Source: Chloracidobacterium sp. N
Lineage (GTDB): Bacteria > Acidobacteriota > Blastocatellia > Chloracidobacteriales > Chloracidobacteriaceae
NCBI RefSeq assembly: GCF_018304765.1
Contig: NZ_CP072642.1
Span: 1,099,501-1,163,500 of the forward strand
Direction of reading: 5' to 3'
DNA: 64,000 nt
The notes beneath the pieces were generated by a model. The model was given only the letters and a program-made list of their open reading frames with translations. It had not been told where the DNA came from and ran no database searches. Numbering within the stretch: the stretch's first letter is position 1; each line of letters opens with the position of its first letter. Positions 8,253 to 35,340 of the stretch are shown here, piece by piece. The position numbers were made by a program, and so were the translations under genes.

Positions 8253-9260
8253 TCAGAGCGCGCCATACATCCGGGCGTAGTACTGGCGATACTCACCGCT
8301 GCGCGCACGCGCCACCCAGGTCGGGTGTTCCCGATACCAGGCAATGGTTTGCGCCAGCCCTTCCACAAAGGGAATCTGCGGCCGCCAGCCCAGCTCGCGT
8401 TCGATCCGGGAACAGTCCACAGCATAGCGCCGGTCGTGCCCCAGGCGGTCGGCGACTTCGGTCAGCAGGGAAGCCGGCTTTCCAAGCAGGTCCAGCAGGG
8501 TCAGCAGCACCGTCCGGTTGGGGAGCGGAGAGCGCCCGCCGATGTGGTAGGTTGCGCCGGGTTGACCTTTTTCAAGAACGACCCGCAGCGCCGCACAGTT
8601 GTCGTCCACGTGAATCCAGTCACGTACCTGCTGGCCGTCGCCATAAACCGGAATCGGACGGTTTTCCAAAGCATTGGTCAGCGCCAGCGGAATAAGCTTT
8701 TCGGGAAACTGATAGGGGCCGTAGTTGTTGCTCGTACGGGTGATGACGGCATCGAGACCGAACGTGTGGGCGGCCGCGCGCACAAGGTGCTCGGCGGCGG
8801 CTTTGCTGGCTGCGTAGGGGCTGCTCGGCACGAGTGGGTCATCCTCGCGGAAAAACCGTCCTTCGGGAAGGCTGCCGCCCACTTCATCCGTGGAAATGTG
8901 CAGGAAGCGCCGGACGCCCTTTTCCCGCGCCACATCGAGCAGCACCTGCGTTCCCAGAACGTTGGTCAGGATGAACTCACGGGCGCTCAGAATGCTGCGG
9001 TCCACGTGGGATTCCGCCGCGAAGTGAACAATGGCGTCGCATCCGTCGGGAATGGCGGCGCGCAAGGCTTCGGCGTCGCAGATGTCACCGTGGATGAAGC
9101 GGTAGGTTGGGTGGCGTGCGGCTTCGGCCACGTTGTCGAGGTTGCCGGCATAGGTCAGTTTGTCAAAGTTGATGACGGTTTCAGCCGGATAGCGTTCGAT
9201 CCACGTCCGAATGAAAGCCGAACCGATGAAACCGGCGCCGCCGGTGATGAAAAGCGCCAT
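8253..9260 (-). CDS. rmlB: dTDP-glucose 4,6-dehydratase
   Basis: A 335-residue extended short-chain dehydrogenase. The N-terminal NAD site FITGGAGFIGS, the catalytic Asp-Glu in STDEVGG and the YAASK catalytic pair (YxxxK) are all present. The reaction gives dTDP-4-keto-6-deoxyglucose, the entry to dTDP-rhamnose and other deoxysugars. Family members usually read DEVYG; here the Tyr is Gly. The ATG at 9260 puts the Rossmann motif at residue 5 as expected. No rmlA, rmlC or rmlD is adjacent, so the pathway is split. A palindrome lies 40 bases upstream of the start. Confidence 0.92.
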   Translation of the reverse strand: MALFITGGAGFIGSAFIRTWIERYPAETVINFDKLTYAGNLDNVAEAARHPTYRFIHGDICDAEALRAAIPDGCDAIVHFAAESHVDRSILSAREFILTNVLGTQVLLDVAREKGVRRFLHISTDEVGGSLPEGRFFREDDPLVPSSPYAASKAAAEHLVRAAAHTFGLDAVITRTSNNYGPYQFPEKLIPLALTNALENRPIPVYGDGQQVRDWIHVDDNCAALRVVLEKGQPGATYHIGGRSPLPNRTVLLTLLDLLGKPASLLTEVADRLGHDRRYAVDCSRIERELGWRPQIPFVEGLAQTIAWYREHPTWVARARSGEYRQYYARMYGAL

Positions 9261-14930: not shown

Positions 14931-15007
14931 TGGTCGGGATGACTGGATTTGAACCAGCGACCTCACGCACCCCAAGCGTGCGCGCTACCAGGCTGCGCCA
15001 CATCCCG
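14931..15007 (-). tRNA. tRNA-Pro(GGG)
   Basis: A complete cloverleaf on the minus strand: 7-bp acceptor stem CGGGATG/CATCCCG, D stem GCGC/GCGC, anticodon stem CACGC/GCGTG around the loop TTGGGGT (anticodon GGG), and T arm GCTGG-TTCAAAT-CCAGT. The 3' CCA is encoded (plus-strand TGG at 14931-14933) after discriminator A. The leading CGGGATGTGGCGCAGCCTGG is typical of proline tRNA. Confidence 0.95.
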
Positions 15008-26992: not shown

Positions 26993-28729
26993 TCAGTGGG
27001 GTGTCGTGGTCAGGCGAAACACGTTGATCAGTGTGCGCGGCGTCTGCCGTTCGATGTTGACGTAGGCGTGGGCGGCTGGCACCCAAGCGTCGTCGAGTAT
27101 CATACCGCGTGGCTGGTATTCGGCAATCGGCAATCCGTCTGAAATCAGCGAAATCCGCCCGGAAGCGTGAAAAAACGTGACGAAGTGGGTGTGGTTTTTC
27201 GTGGCATAGACGGCCTCACCCAAATCCATTTCCGCCAGTTCGCGGTCGCCGGCAAAGGTGGCCAGGCGCATCGGCTGCTGGTCGCCATCACCAAAAAGCA
27301 CCAGGTGGAAATCACCCCCCACCGACGAGGGCATCAGCGCCAGCGCCGGTGAACCCAGCGGAATCTGGTACTTGATGCGGCCGGAGGCATCCAGACACAT
27401 CACTTTGGGGCGAATGGGGCCGGATGTCACCAGGATGTCATCGTCACCCAGCACCAGAAGCTGTGGTGCCTGCAAGTAGTTACACACTTCCAGTTCCCAG
27501 CATTGCCGTCCCTCCGGCGAGTAGCCGGACAGGCGCGTGTCGTTGGCCAGAAGAAACAGGTTTTCGGCCGGGGTCACCGCCAGACTGGTTACAGGAAAGG
27601 GGAGTGAAAACAGTCGCCGGGGCGACATGTCACCGGCCGCAAGCGCGTACAGGCTGCGGTTTGTGGCGAAATAGCTTGTTGTCGCCTCAGCGTGGGGCAC
27701 TGTGGTCGCCGTAATGCGCTCCGGCAGAAAGTAGGGCACAAAGCGCCGCCGGTCGAGTTCCAGAAAGCCGGTCGTGCGGGCATCCACGATATAGACAGCC
27801 GGGCGTTGGAGTGGGTTGATGACAAAGAGCTGCTGGCTGCCAGCGAGTTCGAGGGTAAACCAAGGGTCGAGTTGCTGGGTTTGCGCGATCACCGTGGCCG
27901 TGCCGGGTGCATCGCTGGCTGTATCAGGAGCACACGCGGCCATCGGTGCCGCCGGATCGTCGAGTGTGTCGAGGGCTTCCAGGAGAGCCTGGGCCGACTT
28001 CATCCGTTCTCCGGACGTCTTGTGCAGGAGCGCCGCCACAATGGGGCGCACCGGCTCTGGAATCCGGCTCAAATCAGGTGGTTGCTTGGCATGTTTGGTG
28101 AAAAGCTCCTCCGGCAGACCATGGAAAGGACGATCACCGGTCAGAAGTTCGTAAAAAATCACGCCCAGGGAGTACAGGTCGCTGGCATAGGTTGAAAAGT
28201 CATAAAACTGCTCCGGCGCCATGTAAGCCGGCGACCCGTTTGGCTTTTGCTGATCGAAAACATTGGCCAGGTGATTGGCGATGCCCAGGTCCGCAATCTT
28301 GTAGCGGTTGGCGCCGGTGGGCGGGTCGGGAAAGACCAGGATGTTTTCAGGTTTCAGATCGCGGTGCAGAATCTGCCGGCTGTGGGCATAAGCCAGCCCG
28401 GCGGCCACATCCCGGATCACCCGGACGGCTTCCGCCACCGGCAGTACGGTCTGCTGGTTGAGAACGTCGCGCAAGCTACCACCGGCGGCATATTCCAGCA
28501 CCAGCTTGTTGCGCGTGTTGCCCTGTCCGTAAATGAGGTCAACGCAACGGACGACATTCGGATGTTGCAGGGTCGTCAGGGAAGCCAGTTCACGGAAAAA
28601 GAGTTGGGCGGCTCTGCCGCCGCCCAGAAACTCCTTGATGGCATACAGTTCACCGGTGGTTGAGTCGCGCGCCAGATGGACAATGGCATGAGCGCCGCTA
28701 CCGATAACCTTGAGCGTTTCGTACGTCAT
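26993..28729 (-). CDS. Ser/Thr protein kinase with C-terminal propeller-like domain
   Basis: A 578-residue soluble kinase. The N-terminal domain (1-265) has the loop GSGAHAIVH, Lys32, the catalytic HRDLKPEN near residue 122, DLG in place of DFG at 147-149 (the Asp is kept) and APE in YMAPEQF. A linker rich in Ala and Pro follows, then residues 300-575 with repeating beta-strand patterns such as PVTSLAVTPAENLFLLAND, probably a propeller. There is no membrane segment. It heads an operon with the 62-residue protein, HtrA, DUF4870 and perhaps the ATP-grasp gene, suggesting a role in envelope-stress signalling. Confidence 0.88.
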   Translation of the reverse strand: MTYETLKVIGSGAHAIVHLARDSTTGELYAIKEFLGGGRAAQLFFRELASLTTLQHPNVVRCVDLIYGQGNTRNKLVLEYAAGGSLRDVLNQQTVLPVAEAVRVIRDVAAGLAYAHSRQILHRDLKPENILVFPDPPTGANRYKIADLGIANHLANVFDQQKPNGSPAYMAPEQFYDFSTYASDLYSLGVIFYELLTGDRPFHGLPEELFTKHAKQPPDLSRIPEPVRPIVAALLHKTSGERMKSAQALLEALDTLDDPAAPMAACAPDTASDAPGTATVIAQTQQLDPWFTLELAGSQQLFVINPLQRPAVYIVDARTTGFLELDRRRFVPYFLPERITATTVPHAEATTSYFATNRSLYALAAGDMSPRRLFSLPFPVTSLAVTPAENLFLLANDTRLSGYSPEGRQCWELEVCNYLQAPQLLVLGDDDILVTSGPIRPKVMCLDASGRIKYQIPLGSPALALMPSSVGGDFHLVLFGDGDQQPMRLATFAGDRELAEMDLGEAVYATKNHTHFVTFFHASGRISLISDGLPIAEYQPRGMILDDAWVPAAHAYVNIERQTPRTLINVFRLTTTPH

Positions 28730-28896: not shown

Positions 28897-29535
28897 CTAG
28901 ACGGTTTCAACAACCTGCTCGTGCGTCATGCCGGACTTGATTTTTTCACTGATTCCACGCAGGCGCGCCGCGCCGGTCACCACAAAGCGGCTGGCTTCGG
29001 CGCCACGTGAAATACACTCTGTCTGGACACCATCAAGGTCCTGGCCGCTCATATAGCTCAGCATGCCGGCGAGAATCCCGGCGATCATGGGGTCTGAAAA
29101 CTCATCTTCGTCCCGGATGACCTCGGCGAAGATGGAGTCTTCGAGTGCCGCCGTCACGATGCCTGTTTCACGCGCCCGTGAGACATCAATCGTCATCAGG
29201 CCCCAGCCGTGATAGACGAAGTATTCGCGGAAAAACCGCAGGAACATGCTCACCGGCAGTTCACGAATCTGGAGGTTGCCCACCACCTGGGCTTCCCGCT
29301 CCAGACGGCGCATGATGCGTTCGCCCCAGATGCGCCCACAGGTTTTGAAAATAACGGGCCAGGCCGGGCCGGCTTCATCCTTGACCGCATTATAGACCCC
29401 GGTCAGGAAATCATTGGAGAGCAGGCACAGGCGCGTCTTGGCGGGATTCCACAGGACGCCTTCGCGCAGGTCAAAGCCAATCCGGCCTTCGTCAAAAAAA
29501 GTCTCCAGACCTTCAAGTAAATCCGTCGTCGTCAT
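28897..29535 (-). CDS. V4R-domain protein coupled to the phycobiliprotein-like globin
   Basis: A 212-residue protein whose C-terminal half is a V4R (4-vinyl-reductase) type domain: GILAGMLSYMSGQDLDGVQT, then ECISRGAEASRFVVTG. V4R domains bind small hydrophobic molecules and were first noted in BchJ, linked to chlorophyll 8-vinyl metabolism. The Cys-x(6)-Cys pair usual near the end is reduced to one Cys (174); the second is Ser. The N-terminal half has CLLSNDFLTGVYNAVKDEAG and FFREYFVYHGWG. The ATG overlaps the globin stop (ATGA, 29532-29535), a strong sign that the two products act together. A companion V4R gene lies three genes upstream. Confidence 0.75.
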   Translation of the reverse strand: MTTTDLLEGLETFFDEGRIGFDLREGVLWNPAKTRLCLLSNDFLTGVYNAVKDEAGPAWPVIFKTCGRIWGERIMRRLEREAQVVGNLQIRELPVSMFLRFFREYFVYHGWGLMTIDVSRARETGIVTAALEDSIFAEVIRDEDEFSDPMIAGILAGMLSYMSGQDLDGVQTECISRGAEASRFVVTGAARLRGISEKIKSGMTHEQVVETV

Positions 29536-30131
29536 GCTCCGTAATCCTCCGACAAAACATTCATGGCAAGGTCAAGATAAGGGGCCATCAACCGGAAGCT
29601 CGTGGGCTGCAATTCCTGCTGACACTCGCGCTTGATGACGAAATACATGTGGTAGATGGACTTGACCTTGCCCTTGAAAGACTTGAGTTTTGCCGCCAGT
29701 GTCGGATCAATCCTGGAAAAGGCTTCCCGCATGGCTTCTGTTTGACCGGTTTCCGGGAACTCAAAGGACTGGAGAATGGTCTTCATCCAGATAAGCAGCT
29801 TGTCTTCAAACCAGCGCGGGTCATCAATAAGCATGGAGAGCGTGGCGTACGAAAGCACGTAGCGCGCATCACGGACACATTTTGCCGTGGCATGCTCATG
29901 GTGCTGTTCGTAGGGGTACATCGTGTAAATCTCTTTCACGCTGCGCCCCACGATGCCGGTTTCCTTGGCGCGTATGTCTTTGGCTGCCTCGATGTGCGCC
30001 TTGAGGTTGGGGTAAAGACTTTCCAGCTTGGCAAACTCGGCATCCGTGAAGTATTTGCCTTCGGCTTGCCGGAACATGTTCGCCAGCTCAGGATGACGAT
30101 GTGGGGGAAGTGCCACGGCAGGTGATGTCAT
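29532..30131 (-). CDS. phycobiliprotein-like globin with bilin-attachment motif
   Basis: A 199-residue protein that I align by eye with allophycocyanin subunits: a GKYFTDAEFAKLESLYPNL start resembling the first helices, then a long helix, then ATAKCVRDARYVLSYATLSM, matching the bilin site (Cys-x-Arg-Asp) at Cys85, Arg87 and Asp88, then LIDDPRWFEDKLL in place of the conserved acidic-turn helix, and a C-terminal MAPYLDLAMNVLS like the last helix. It has about 35 extra residues between the last helices (Lys-rich SFKGKVKSIYHMYF). Phycobiliproteins carry linear tetrapyrroles; whether this one does is unproven. The start at 30131 follows GGAGG. A non-heme or sensor globin is the alternative. Confidence 0.72.
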   Translation of the reverse strand: MTSPAVALPPHRHPELANMFRQAEGKYFTDAEFAKLESLYPNLKAHIEAAKDIRAKETGIVGRSVKEIYTMYPYEQHHEHATAKCVRDARYVLSYATLSMLIDDPRWFEDKLLIWMKTILQSFEFPETGQTEAMREAFSRIDPTLAAKLKSFKGKVKSIYHMYFVIKRECQQELQPTSFRLMAPYLDLAMNVLSEDYGA

Positions 30132-30239: not shown

Positions 30240-30800
30240 TCAGTTTTTGGATTTTGAAGCGCGCACGGCGCTTTCCGTCGCTGCGCGCAGGAAGTCACTT
30301 GTCCCGGCGCCTGACCAGGGGGAGCGCCCGGAGCGGGTACTGCCGCCGCCTGGGTTCCAGGGAATACTCTGGAAGAAGGCCAGTGCCGTTTCTTCGTCAG
30401 CAGTCGTGGTATCGGCGGTACCCACAACCAGGGAGGCGGCGACCGAGGCTGCTACCGCGGCCGGTGGTGTGACAGCCGGCGCCGGCGCGGAGGCCGCGCC
30501 AGACGCAACCCCAGATGCGACGGCTGTCGGAAGCGGCGGCAGCGCACCGGTGGTGCGGGCGGCAGCCGTCAAACGGGTTGTGGACGGACGAACGACGACG
30601 GATCGCACCGCAGCCGCGCCACGCTGGGTCCAGGGCACCATTTCCGTGAAGAAGACCTCGGCCGTGTCTTCCAGACTCAGTGCCACACGGGCGCGCTGCA
30701 TCGCCAGGTTGAGTTTCTCACGGCACCGTGCGATGCGTGCCAGCAGGGCTTCCTGTTCGTCGAGCAAATCTTGGGGGAGTGAAAGGCTCAGTGTTGTCAT
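30240..30800 (-). CDS. unrecognised linker protein with two FF..PW motifs
   Basis: A 186-residue protein I do not recognise. Residues 1-45 form a likely amphipathic helix (LLDEQEALLARIARCREKLN). FFTEMVPW lies at 50-57 and FFQSIPW at 142-148, each after an acidic helix (SLEDTAEV, DEETALA). Between them are about 80 residues made mostly of Ala, Val, Pro and Thr, and the tail is Ser/Gly/Arg-rich with another PWSG. The layout suggests two short docking motifs on a flexible tether, that is, a scaffold. The longer open frame to 30887 overlaps the hairpin and lacks a good start; the ATG at 30800 is used. The neighbours are V4R2 and the globin. Confidence 0.7.
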   Translation of the reverse strand: MTTLSLSLPQDLLDEQEALLARIARCREKLNLAMQRARVALSLEDTAEVFFTEMVPWTQRGAAAVRSVVVRPSTTRLTAAARTTGALPPLPTAVASGVASGAASAPAPAVTPPAAVAASVAASLVVGTADTTTADEETALAFFQSIPWNPGGGSTRSGRSPWSGAGTSDFLRAATESAVRASKSKN

Positions 30801-30887: not shown

Positions 30888-31550
30888 TCAGTCAACGAGC
30901 TTTTCCATGATTTCTTTGGCTGACGCACCTTCACGGCGCCAGAATTCAGCCGCATTGACCTTTTTCTGCGAGCCAACAATGAACTTGCAGCAGTCATTTC
31001 CCATCGAGTAGCACTGCACTTCGATACCACCCCGTTCCTCGCGGTCAAACACGCTGAAAACACCGGCAAACATGCCGGCATACATGTAGCAGACCGGTTT
31101 TCCGACCTGCTCCATAGCTTTGGCAACGGCTGAATTCTTGATGGTGACAAAGACCATGCCCTGCTTTTCAAAGCTGAAATCAATTGCCCAGGCTCCCCAG
31201 CCTTCAGTCGTCAGCGGCCACCACCAAGACTCCAGTACGAACTTGCGGTTCATCTGCCATATATCGAGCTTTCCGCCGCCAAATTCATGACGCATTTTTT
31301 CGGCAAAACGCTTCATGTCGCTGACGCCCCATTCGTAGCCGTTTTTGTACATGACAAGGCTGGAAGCGTCACCGACTTCTTCATCGAGTCCGGCGTGGAG
31401 GCTGGTGATGAAATCTTCAGAAGCATAGACACCACGCTGCCCATCCCGAAGCCGGATGGTGCGGGTGCGTGAGTCACGGGAAAGGAAGTCTTCAGGGACA
31501 AAGTAGTTGTGGTAGTTCTTGATACCACCATCGGCCACATTAATTGCCAT
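30888..31550 (-). CDS. V4R-domain protein, first gene after a strong promoter
   Basis: A 220-residue soluble protein. The C-terminal half is a V4R-type domain: CYMYAGMFAGVFSVF followed by EVQCYSMGNDCCKFIVGS, keeping the Cys pair (180, 187/188) plus Cys154 that the partner V4R protein at 28897-29535 lacks. The middle is rich in Trp and Phe (ESWWWPLTTEGWGAWAIDF), suited to a hydrophobic or tetrapyrrole ligand. The N-terminal part has FLSRDSRTRTIRLRDGQRG. It is preceded by a consensus-like promoter (31622-31650) and followed by a stable hairpin, so it may be the most abundant product of the cluster. V4R proteins include BchJ; the actual ligand is unknown. Confidence 0.8.
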   Translation of the reverse strand: MAINVADGGIKNYHNYFVPEDFLSRDSRTRTIRLRDGQRGVYASEDFITSLHAGLDEEVGDASSLVMYKNGYEWGVSDMKRFAEKMRHEFGGGKLDIWQMNRKFVLESWWWPLTTEGWGAWAIDFSFEKQGMVFVTIKNSAVAKAMEQVGKPVCYMYAGMFAGVFSVFDREERGGIEVQCYSMGNDCCKFIVGSQKKVNAAEFWRREGASAKEIMEKLVD

Positions 31551-31711: not shown

Positions 31712-32185
31712 TCAGGAAGCTGACGCCGCGAGCTTCGACATGTCAAAATCTTCGCCTTCCAGCTCCAGGATTCTGGACTTCGTGATGATTTTCCCGCGTT
31801 CAATGAGCACCCGACCATCGCGGGGGTGCAAAATTGGCACCTCGGCCCGCTTGCCGACGAGCACGCGGAGGTCTTCGATGTCCTGGAGATACATGCCTTC
31901 AGGGAGTTCGACGACCACGCCATCACCAATGATGCGCGCCTGGCAGGAGAGCCGTGACCGGGCCGTAGCGCCGGTAATCGTGCCCAGCGTGCGAATCTCC
32001 CGTTCGGTGCGGGGCGTGAGACTTTCCTCACCCTTGATGACAAACACGTGACAGGTTGCACACAGACCCATGCCGCCGCACGCCATGGCCACTTCGCACT
32101 GTGAGGCCAGCAGGGTGTCGAGAACCTTGGTGTCCGTTTTGACCGAAATCGTTTTGTTGATCGGTTGCAGGGTGAGAGTTTTCAT
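31712..32185 (-). CDS. [2Fe-2S] adrenodoxin-type ferredoxin with C-terminal extension
   Basis: A 157-residue protein. Cys36-x5-Cys42-x2-Cys45 and Cys81 form the vertebrate/adrenodoxin-type [2Fe-2S] site within the typical beta-grasp frame (GEESLTPRTEREIRTLG). A further Cys30 is present. Residues 98-157 are an extension absent from simple ferredoxins: LQDIEDLRVLVGKRAEVPIL then HPRDGRVLIERGKIITKS, ending in ELEGEDFDMSKL. It starts 5 bases after the stop of the FNR-fold gene, so the two are coupled and probably pass electrons to each other. Chlorosome-envelope ferredoxin proteins of green bacteria are a possible analogy, not shown here. Confidence 0.87.
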   Translation of the reverse strand: MKTLTLQPINKTISVKTDTKVLDTLLASQCEVAMACGGMGLCATCHVFVIKGEESLTPRTEREIRTLGTITGATARSRLSCQARIIGDGVVVELPEGMYLQDIEDLRVLVGKRAEVPILHPRDGRVLIERGKIITKSRILELEGEDFDMSKLAASAS

Positions 32186-32190
32186 GGGGC

Positions 32191-32886
32191 TTAGCTCCAG
32201 CGTTCGACAAAAATACTTGTTTTGGGAATCTCAGCCGACTGGAGAGTTTGCTGATAGAACTTTACTTCAGGATATTCACCGGCGACGTAAAATTTCGTAT
32301 TGGGATTTTCAAGGTAAAGGCTTCCCACCATGACCGGCGTGACACGTCCCAGACCTCCGAACCACCCTGCCGGGCGGGTTGGCTGGTCGAGCAGGATGAC
32401 ACGGGTCAGGGGACTGTTCTGCTCAAAATGCTTAAACTCAGCATCGTAGAGTACCTGACTGGGATCAGTGACTTCATGAAAGAGCGTCATGCGTCGTTCC
32501 GGCTGACGGACAAGCATGTAGTAAAAAAAGCTGCGTGCGGCCGGAATACAGTAGTTACAGCCAATGAAACAGACCGGATCGAGGCTGTCTGTCTGAAGCT
32601 TGAGTTGTCCCATCGGACGCCCGATGGAAACGGTGTCTCCAACCTGCATCCGGTCGTAAAACTGCGTGCCAAAGTTGCCGGTCCTTTTGACCGTTAGCTG
32701 GAAGTACTTTTGATCGTGAGGAGATGAACTGATGGTCAGCGGCGCCTGGTGTTTGTCATCAAGATGAACAATGATGAACTGCCCCGGTATGAAACCAAAA
32801 GGTTGATCGCCAAAATCAAAGATAAATGAACGCACGTCCGGCGTTTCCTGGATGATACGGCGCAGGATGTAAGGGTGCGTTTTCAT
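32191..32886 (-). CDS. ferredoxin-NADP reductase-fold protein with altered cofactor motifs
   Basis: A 231-residue protein with the FNR two-domain plan. The flavin-domain motif is APLTISSSP (48-56), where the family's Arg of R-x-Y/F-T/S is Ala48. The pyridine-nucleotide loop, normally GGTGxxP, reads GCNYCIPAARS (109-119). The late CGP motif reads AGEYPEV (202-208). The C-terminal VERWS resembles the family's E-R-W/F end. The fold is thus kept, but NAD(P) binding looks weakened or replaced, and a CxxC (110, 113) has appeared. Next to the ferredoxin it may be a redox partner using another donor, or a structural relative. Confidence 0.75.
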   Translation of the reverse strand: MKTHPYILRRIIQETPDVRSFIFDFGDQPFGFIPGQFIIVHLDDKHQAPLTISSSPHDQKYFQLTVKRTGNFGTQFYDRMQVGDTVSIGRPMGQLKLQTDSLDPVCFIGCNYCIPAARSFFYYMLVRQPERRMTLFHEVTDPSQVLYDAEFKHFEQNSPLTRVILLDQPTRPAGWFGGLGRVTPVMVGSLYLENPNTKFYVAGEYPEVKFYQQTLQSAEIPKTSIFVERWS

Positions 32887-32984: not shown

Positions 32985-33881
32985 CTAGCGGGAGCGCAGG
33001 CTGGCCAGTTCCTGTTCCAGCGCCCGGATGTGCTTCGCCGTCATTTCATTGGTCTGGGCCGCTTCTGCAACAAGGGTATCTATTTCTTGCGTGAGCCGTG
33101 CATTTTCGGCGAGAGATTCACCATACACCCGGGCAAACAACCTGTGTTGACGATGTACCTGCTGGGATAGAAGGTCAAGTTCACCTTCGGTTTCTTTCGC
33201 CACTTCAAGCATGCCAAACAACGCCAAGTCGGCAACCTCAATCCGCCGTCCAAGCTGCTGAAGATGGCGGCGCACCGCCAGTTCGAGATCGTTCAGATCG
33301 GCCTGGACCTCCTCCATGTCCACAGCCGCTTCCTGCAAGCGGTATTGAAGCTGGAGAATGTCACCTTCACGCTGATGGAAATAGTGACGCACGGTCTCTT
33401 CAATATCGTCCAGATCAGCCTGGGCTTCCTGCATATCCATTGCGGCTTCCTGCAAACGGTACTGAAGCTGAAGGACATTGCTTTCGCGGTGGGACAGATG
33501 TTCGGCAACGTGCCTGTTGTATGTCAACAACGCCTGCCGGATGTCCTCCATCTCGCGGGTGACTTCGCTGACTACCGAGAACAGGTTGCGTACGGCGGTG
33601 TCGTAATGCGCCAGTTCCTGGTTGCGTTCACGCAGAAAACCCAGCGCTTCATCCCGTTCCTGGCGGAGACGGCGGATGGTCATTTCGGCTGCCTCAAGGC
33701 GGCTAATTCCGTGCTGAAGTGCCGGGAACCGCTCCAGGGTGCGATTGATGAGACCCACACACCAGCGGTACACCAGGCGGGTCAGGGCTGGCAAAACCTG
33801 AAGGGAATCTTTCGGCCCGCTTTCCGGTGGGGATGAGACCGGGGACAGGGACGTATCGCTGACAGACATGGGGGCTGACAT
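32985..33881 (-). CDS. coiled-coil protein with tandem 39-residue repeat
   Basis: A 298-residue protein, unrecognised by family. A Ser/Pro-rich head (1-30) is followed by a short helix containing RLVYRWCVGLINRTLERFPA, perhaps membrane-binding, then nearly continuous coiled coil from about 60 to 298. Two copies of a 39-residue unit (about 128-205) share LQLQYRLQEAA and DM-x-E-x-QADL. The C-terminus reads KHIRALEQELASLRSR. It has no enzyme motif. It could be a scaffold or tether. It precedes the FNR and ferredoxin genes by 98 bases and has its own candidate promoter at 34059-34086. Confidence 0.75.
   Translation of the reverse strand: MSAPMSVSDTSLSPVSSPPESGPKDSLQVLPALTRLVYRWCVGLINRTLERFPALQHGISRLEAAEMTIRRLRQERDEALGFLRERNQELAHYDTAVRNLFSVVSEVTREMEDIRQALLTYNRHVAEHLSHRESNVLQLQYRLQEAAMDMQEAQADLDDIEETVRHYFHQREGDILQLQYRLQEAAVDMEEVQADLNDLELAVRRHLQQLGRRIEVADLALFGMLEVAKETEGELDLLSQQVHRQHRLFARVYGESLAENARLTQEIDTLVAEAAQTNEMTAKHIRALEQELASLRSR
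33267..33500 (-). repeat. in-frame 117-bp tandem duplication
   Basis: The DNA around CTTCCTGCAA recurs exactly 117 bases apart (33329 and 33446), giving two 39-residue coiled-coil units in the protein above. The copies differ at many third positions, so the duplication is not recent. Confidence 0.75.
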
Positions 33882-34176: not shown

Positions 34177-35340
34177 TCACTCCGTGGTTGTGGGTGCGGC
34201 CTCTGCCCGTGCGAGCTGGTCTGCGGGGGTGGTGTCGTGTGCTTCATGCAGCAGGTCAAGGGCCTTCAGCCCATTGGCAAGAAACTTGAGAACGGCGGCC
34301 TGGTCAGGCAGGGGGGCTGCAATCTCCCCAAACGTGCGCTGTCCGTCGAACAGGTGCAGCAGGTGGGTTGCCTGCTGCGGGAAGTCCGCGGATGCAAGAC
34401 GGTGCGACAGTTCGGGCGCCAGGGCGTAAACCTTCGACGCCTCGACGGGGGACGCCAACATGTGATCGGCCAGAGTCAGTATCAAGGCAGCGGCTTTGAG
34501 CGCCGCTTCGGTCATCTGGCGTTCCGTGGCTGGCACGGCAGTGAACGGCTGCCCATTCACTTTGTCTTCTTCCTGATCACCCGGCGGCTGGGGCGCTGCC
34601 ATGCGTCCGGCTTCCACGTCTGGCTGGGGTGGACGGTGGGGCGCTGCGCCGGCCCGGGAGCGGGCTTCCTCGGCTTCATCCCGGCGGCGGAAGGCTTCCA
34701 TCAGCAGCCCCATGAGGCGGTCATGGAGTGTTTTCGGAGGGGGCGTCGCTGGCAGTGTCGCCATCTGAAGCTTGACCGCTTCCCACAACAGGATGTCGTA
34801 TGCTGCGGTTTCACCGGAGCTTTCGCCGGTTTCGGCGTGAAAGAGGTCGCCGTCGCAGAAGTAGAGATACCCCACGCGCCCGTTGGCCGTAACCCGCAGG
34901 GCGCAGCTTTTGCGCTCAGTTTCCAGAAGCTGGAGAAATGAAGGCAGGGTCAACCCCTGGATGACACCCTGCTGACGGGCGTCGAGTTCATTGCAGATCA
35001 GGTTATGGAGCGCCGTGACGCTGAGCGGCTTGCGGATGACCGGAAAGGCGCCGACGCCCTGCAGGCGGTTTTCGACAGCGCTGACCACCATGGCGGTCAT
35101 GATGATGATGGGGATGTGGACCTGCTCGCTGAGCAGGTGGGCAATCAGCTCGAAGCCATCCATCACGGGCATCTGGAGGTCCGTCACCACGACATCCACG
35201 GGTTGGTGCATCAGGATGTCAAGCGCCTCCCGTCCGTGTTCGGCCGTGATGATGGTGAAGGTGTCCTGGTAGCGGCTGAGCCACTTGGATACAATCTGGA
35301 GTACGGCCTGGTCGTCATCAACCAATAGAACTCGCTTCAT
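34177..35340 (-). CDS. PatA-like response regulator (receiver + DUF4388)
   Basis: A 387-residue cytosolic protein. Residues 1-125 form a receiver: acidic pair in LLVDDDQAV, phospho-acceptor Asp in VVVTDLQMP, Lys in VIRKPL. Residues 128-210 match the DUF4388/PatA N-terminal type (GVIQGLTLPSFLQLLETERK, then GYLYFCDGDLFHAETG). A Pro-rich linker and a helical C-terminal region follow, with ASPVEASKVYALAPELSHRL. Proteins of this kind occur in cyanobacterial phototaxis and heterocyst control and in gliding bacteria, and have no DNA-binding domain. No histidine kinase is adjacent. It lies upstream of the V4R/globin cluster and may regulate it, which is inference. Confidence 0.85.
   Translation of the reverse strand: MKRVLLVDDDQAVLQIVSKWLSRYQDTFTIITAEHGREALDILMHQPVDVVVTDLQMPVMDGFELIAHLLSEQVHIPIIIMTAMVVSAVENRLQGVGAFPVIRKPLSVTALHNLICNELDARQQGVIQGLTLPSFLQLLETERKSCALRVTANGRVGYLYFCDGDLFHAETGESSGETAAYDILLWEAVKLQMATLPATPPPKTLHDRLMGLLMEAFRRRDEAEEARSRAGAAPHRPPQPDVEAGRMAAPQPPGDQEEDKVNGQPFTAVPATERQMTEAALKAAALILTLADHMLASPVEASKVYALAPELSHRLASADFPQQATHLLHLFDGQRTFGEIAAPLPDQAAVLKFLANGLKALDLLHEAHDTTPADQLARAEAAPTTTE

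Follow-up and report, generated by a model that had tools for sequence, protein, structure and literature searches.

The BBAG-1 family of bilin biosynthesis-associated globins (BBAGs), together with its gene cluster of a globin, two V4R proteins and a 2Fe-2S protein, was described by Rockwell, Martin and Lagarias in 2023 (PMC10151467). According to that study, BBAGs show low fluorescence and their function is stated to be unknown. One BBAG-1 protein, taken from a different bacterium, was photoinert and bound bilin, though poorly, in the absence of a lyase. The pre-1 group of bilin reductases associated with these globins was reported to lack the catalytic residues of PcyA, and the association may include distant members. 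Acidobacteria are among the hosts of this reductase, and the cluster of Chloracidobacterium is discussed. Heme oxygenase was noted to be absent from Chloracidobacterium, while it is typically present in other pre-1 clusters (PMC10151467).

The second well-described system is the slr0144-slr0152 operon of Synechocystis, in which Slr0149 is the BBAG. Affinity purification showed that Slr0144-Slr0149 interact physically (PMC9880817). The operon ends with the kinase gene spkG (PMC11863333) and is linked to photosystem II assembly (PMC11863333, PMC13326532).

In the 64,000-nucleotide stretch of Chloracidobacterium sp. N analyzed here (the window), a gene on the minus strand had been read from the sequence alone as a phycobiliprotein-like globin with an intact Cys-x-Arg-Asp site. 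Its open reading frame starts with ATG at 30131, preceded by a Shine-Dalgarno-like GGAGG, and its stop codon lies within a 4-nt overlap with the start of the downstream V4R gene. A promoter scan gave nothing above shuffled background. The only Pfam match of the protein (hmmscan) is PF00502 Phycobilisome, with 78 bits against a cut-off of 22.2 bits and E 9.8e-22. No other Pfam family was matched at E <= 0.1, so RsbR-type or other non-phycobilisome globins do not provide a better match. The bilin-site triplet is Cys85-Val-Arg87-Asp88, within ATAKCVRDARYVL. When the protein was compared with the PDB (phmmer), its closest solved relatives were allophycocyanin beta chains, and Cys85, Arg87 and Asp88 fell on the C-x-R-D bilin site of chain 1b33_B (E 9.9e-9). 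Nine orthologues were used to build an AlphaFold2 model (mean pLDDT 82.6). The 50 Foldseek matches listed for it are all phycobiliproteins, among them allophycocyanins and phycocyanins, with TM-scores on the query of 0.45-0.58 and a large rmsd. The fold class of the predicted structure is clear, and its fine geometry is not. Both the globin assignment and the intact triplet of the sequence-only reading are thereby borne out.

The likeness to allophycocyanin beta (ApcB) lies in the solved structures and the aligned bilin Cys, whereas the Chloracidobacterium globin has about 40 extra C-terminal residues, lacks an alpha partner and belongs to another clade. A small tree of 24 globins separated, with support of 99/97, the acidobacterial globins and those of the Acaryochloris V4R clusters from phycobiliproteins plus photoglobins. 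The PF00502 match and the intact C-x-R-D would also suit a light-harvesting phycobiliprotein acquired from cyanobacteria. Against this origin, no second PF00502 gene was found in the genome, which leaves no alpha/beta pair, the protein groups with the V4R-cluster globins outside the phycobiliprotein clade, and BBAGs are of low fluorescence (PMC10151467). A light-harvesting role is highly improbable, and it was rejected on the missing pair and the tree position. Photoglobins are related globins that also carry a Cys-containing motif, but in these a B12-binding type domain is fused to the globin, and they form a separate branch. The Chloracidobacterium protein was not accepted as a photoglobin, as its 199 amino acids hold PF00502 only and no B12-binding fusion. 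Among 396 sampled acidobacterial genomes, PF00502 was matched twice outside the genus, both times in photoglobins with B12-type C-termini. These two proteins (L041 in G070 and L042 in G218) come from other acidobacterial families. Plasmid searches returned cyanobacterial clusters and no further non-cyanobacterial BBAG.

The tree and the gene-by-gene match of the cluster to that of Acaryochloris place the globin in BBAG-1 as defined in PMC10151467, and this identity is near certain. The kinship to bilin biosynthesis-associated globins suggested from the sequence therefore agrees with both the tree and the published family. The discovery of the globin is not new, since BBAG-1 was already described and the genus named in that work. 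The expectation that such a protein should not occur in Acidobacteriota does not hold, as the Chloracidobacterium cluster is discussed there (PMC10151467) and the gene is found in all seven Chloracidobacterium genomes.

The genome consists of two contigs of 3.7 Mb in all. Its proteins are about 90% identical to those of the nearest named relatives, metagenome-assembled genomes labelled Chloracidobacterium or Blastocatellia, and the host was correctly taken to be non-cyanobacterial. The FMO protein is encoded in the genus and in G007, a member of another phototrophic genus, from which it follows that bacteriochlorophyll is made there. FMO was not detected in the further relative G012, whose assembly is 83% complete. 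Together, FMO and the nearest relatives identify the host as a chlorophototrophic acidobacterium, and a tetrapyrrole context is less surprising in such a host than first assumed. Chloracidobacterium is a culturable phototroph and has a type I reaction centre only.

Table 1. Genes of the BBAG-1 cluster (window coordinates) and the remote bilin reductase (coordinates on L003)
Feature	Location	Strand	Evidence
Ser/Thr protein kinase with C-terminal domain	26993..28729	(-)	PF00069 E 3.5e-47
V4R-domain protein, counterpart of cyanobacterial second V4R	28897..29535	(-)	PF02830 E 8.2e-6, under cut-off
BBAG-1 phycobiliprotein-like globin, 199 aa, C85-V-R87-D88	29532..30131	(-)	PF00502, ApcB alignment, fold match, tree
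hypX, low-complexity, 186 aa, helix-like N-terminal stretch, two FF-x4-5-W motifs	30240..30800	(-)	no Pfam match
V4R-domain protein, counterpart of cyanobacterial first V4R	30888..31550	(-)	PF02830 E 5.7e-16
2Fe-2S protein (FeS), conserved C-terminal extension	31712..32185	(-)	PF00111 E 2.6e-9
FAD/NAD(P)-binding oxidoreductase (FADox)	32191..32886	(-)	PF00970, PF00175
pre-1-type bilin reductase	L003 6924-7658		PF05996, only Pfam match; PcyA His88 and Asp105 absent

All genes of the cluster (Table 1) lie on the minus strand in the order FADox, FeS, first V4R, hypX, globin, second V4R and Ser/Thr kinase, followed by an HtrA-type protease and others, and the FADox gene is 5 nt upstream of the FeS gene. 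The order from FADox to the kinase is kept in the six fully covered loci of the genus and in G007, and its part from FeS to the kinase is kept in G012. The kinase is thus syntenic in all of these loci. FADox and the Ser/Thr kinase are conserved partners of BBAG-1, and FADox is the probable electron donor. FeS and the first V4R are the most conserved proteins across the genus (92-99% identity, with 94-98% for the first V4R), and hypX varies between 55 and 91%. The first V4R has no sequence match in the PDB. Its model (pLDDT 70) is similar to TRAPP Bet3 and to the domains by which PoxR, DmpR and MopR sense aromatic ligands, a similarity that is consistent with a hydrophobic-ligand pocket. Upstream of the cluster are two genus-conserved, fast-evolving genes, which encode a coiled-coil protein (32985-33881, minus strand, 47-87% identity) and a response regulator with a DUF4388 domain (34177-35340, minus strand, 53-81% identity). 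The sole Rfam match in the window is a tRNA-Pro (GGG) at 14931-15007 on the minus strand.

The gene set of the slr0144-slr0152 type (V4R pair, FeS, BBAG and a small FF-x-W ORF) is present at this locus, with the clusters of Acaryochloris serving as proxy for the cyanobacterial one. The plasmid clusters of Acaryochloris contain, in order, a V4R gene, a small ORF, a second globin, another V4R gene, a 2Fe-2S gene and the globin. Copies of the V4R/FeS/BBAG cluster on the Acaryochloris marina plasmids pREC3 (L046) and pREC2 (L047) are annotated 'allophycocyanin', and the second globin beside them is without the C-x-R-D motif. Identity to this cluster is 43% for the first V4R (to V4R_a), 52-54% for FeS and 29% for the globin. 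The best match of the second V4R is V4R_b, at 29% identity and E 1e-27. The proxy cluster differs from that of Chloracidobacterium in its second globin and in having no reductase. Synechocystis shares the V4R pair, the 2Fe-2S protein, the globin and the terminal kinase gene, whereas Chloracidobacterium has FADox in addition and a type I reaction centre only. With BBAG-1 as published (PMC10151467), the locus shares the C-x-R-D globin, the two V4R and 2Fe-2S proteins in the cluster and a pre-1 reductase in the genome. It differs in that the reductase is 1 Mb off, no heme oxygenase was found, and FADox, the kinase and the FF-x-W protein are extra neighbours.

The bilin site is kept unevenly. C-V-R-D is intact in all seven Chloracidobacterium globins aligned, the globin of G012 has C-P-R-D, and in that of G007 (L025 2771-3355) Ala replaces Cys85, giving AVRD. 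The Arg and Asp do not vary in the alignment, which includes both relatives. The Ala in G007 indicates that covalent attachment is not essential across the lineage. Covalent attachment of a bilin at Cys85 is plausible but not conserved. Loss of the Cys in G007 also favours the possibility that the globin acts as an apoprotein, that is, as a structural or docking subunit in which C-x-R-D is a relic. The motif-free second globin of the Acaryochloris cluster and the failure to find a heme oxygenase point in the same direction. This possibility is unlikely, however, in view of the intact motif in seven of seven genus sequences, the Arg and Asp that are invariant even in G007 and G012, and the retention of the reductase.

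The small cyanobacterial ORF that corresponds to hypX shares with it a repeated FF-x4-5-W motif, in two or three copies each. This motif is present in all eight acidobacterial hypX orthologues and in both Acaryochloris clusters. In a shuffle test, the acidobacterial proteins reached P <= 5e-5 and the two from cyanobacteria about 1e-3, values that are optimistic because the motif was picked after the sequences had been viewed. The shared syntenic position of hypX and the cyanobacterial ORF is a stronger argument than the P values. The Acaryochloris ORFs lie at L047 7536-7898 and at about 5273-5660 of L046, and one plasmid leaves its copy unannotated. A further small ORF follows the third V4R gene beside the reductase (L003, about 8421-8833) and has an ETVxxFFRRxVRP-like ending akin to the FF motif of hypX, an ending that was seen in seven of seven genus genomes examined. 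We infer that the FF-x-W and ETVxxFFRRxVRP-like segments may serve as docking segments.

The genome search for a bilin reductase, which had been proposed along with profile and structure comparisons that gave the results above, found a PF05996 gene about 1 Mb from the globin cluster. It adjoins a third V4R gene and occurs in all seven Chloracidobacterium genomes. Its product aligns with PcyA and other bilin reductases, with Thr77 at the position of PcyA His88 and Glu95 at that of Asp105. A phylum-wide search for the reductase missed the known gene in two genomes (G000 and G005), and its counts are lower bounds that were not used. In G012, a FADox homologue is directly upstream of the reductase gene (L027). 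The position of FADox, upstream of FeS here and of the reductase in G012, suggests an electron path from NAD(P)H through FADox and FeS to the reductase, as far as gene neighbourhood can indicate.

Heme oxygenase (PF01126) was found in none of 14 genomes of the order by a first-look filter that can miss divergent genes. With the same caveat, the DUF2470 type (PF10615) was absent from the genus, and the alternative heme-degrading family PF14518 gave a sub-threshold match only (E 0.01). A cryptic heme oxygenase may exist, given that the reductase was overlooked in this way in G000 and G005. As none was found, the source of bilin is unexplained. A bacteriophytochrome was considered as bilin user and dismissed, since no PHY domain was found in the genome. 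The ligand need not derive from heme: the protein could be a sensor globin for another open-chain or a chlorophyll-derived tetrapyrrole, which would be reduced by the divergent pre-1 reductase. The genus retains reductase and globin in all genomes although no heme oxygenase was found, Glu and Thr occupy the PcyA Asp105 and His88 positions, and bacteriochlorophyll is made in the genus and in G007, as their FMO genes imply. In contrast, G012 has the cluster and the reductase with no FMO detected in its 83% complete assembly, the reductase matches PF05996 only, and heme oxygenase is typical of other pre-1 clusters (PMC10151467). A non-heme-derived ligand is distinctly unlikely on this evidence.

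Taken as a whole, the best explanation is that the globin is a subunit of a V4R/2Fe-2S/BBAG complex whose cyanobacterial counterpart is Slr0144-Slr0149. This explanation, including the mechanism proposed below, is favoured with somewhat better than even confidence. BBAG-1 is most likely the subunit that binds a tetrapyrrole, in a complex that would sense redox state or act in assembly and probably has the kinase as its output. The suggestion that the globin senses light or redox state on its own is unlikely to hold, because its gene is part of a conserved cluster and the Synechocystis counterparts of that cluster show physical interaction (PMC9880817). In the proposed mechanism, the globin would hold an open-chain tetrapyrrole at its C-x-R-D site, covalently where the Cys is present, and the two V4R proteins would supply hydrophobic ligand pockets. 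Binding of bilin by the BBAG-1 of another bacterium, although poor, speaks for such a ligand (PMC10151467). With its FF-x-W repeats, hypX would tether the subunits. NAD(P)H would provide electrons that pass via FADox and the 2Fe-2S protein and could reach the remote pre-1 bilin reductase. The neighbouring Ser/Thr kinase would signal the state of the complex and so regulate the assembly and repair of photosystem or redox proteins. The mechanism is moderately supported at best; we infer its ligand, electron path, tethering and output. Kinase and FADox are likewise putative parts of the complex in Chloracidobacterium, proposed from their conserved gene positions. The lack of a detected heme oxygenase, the Ala for Cys85 in G007 and the distance of 1 Mb to the reductase count against the explanation as a whole, as does the BBAG-1 of another bacterium, which was poorly chromophorylated and photoinert when tested (PMC10151467).

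A bilin-globin system free of heme oxygenase can also be envisaged, in which reductase and globin would act on a chlorophyll-derived or non-canonical open-chain tetrapyrrole and the complex held by FF-x-W would serve assembly or repair of the type I reaction centre. This proposal is quite improbable. If it were true, what the 'photosystem II assembly' cluster of cyanobacteria does would not be tied to photosystem II.

Phycobiliproteins probably have their sister group in the BBAG family, and Chloracidobacterium is a phototroph with a whole BBAG system. Since heme oxygenase is apparently absent, the question of the ligand can be tested directly in this organism. The newly noted FADox, kinase and FF-x-W tether protein are handles on a complex that is linked in cyanobacteria to photosystem II assembly.
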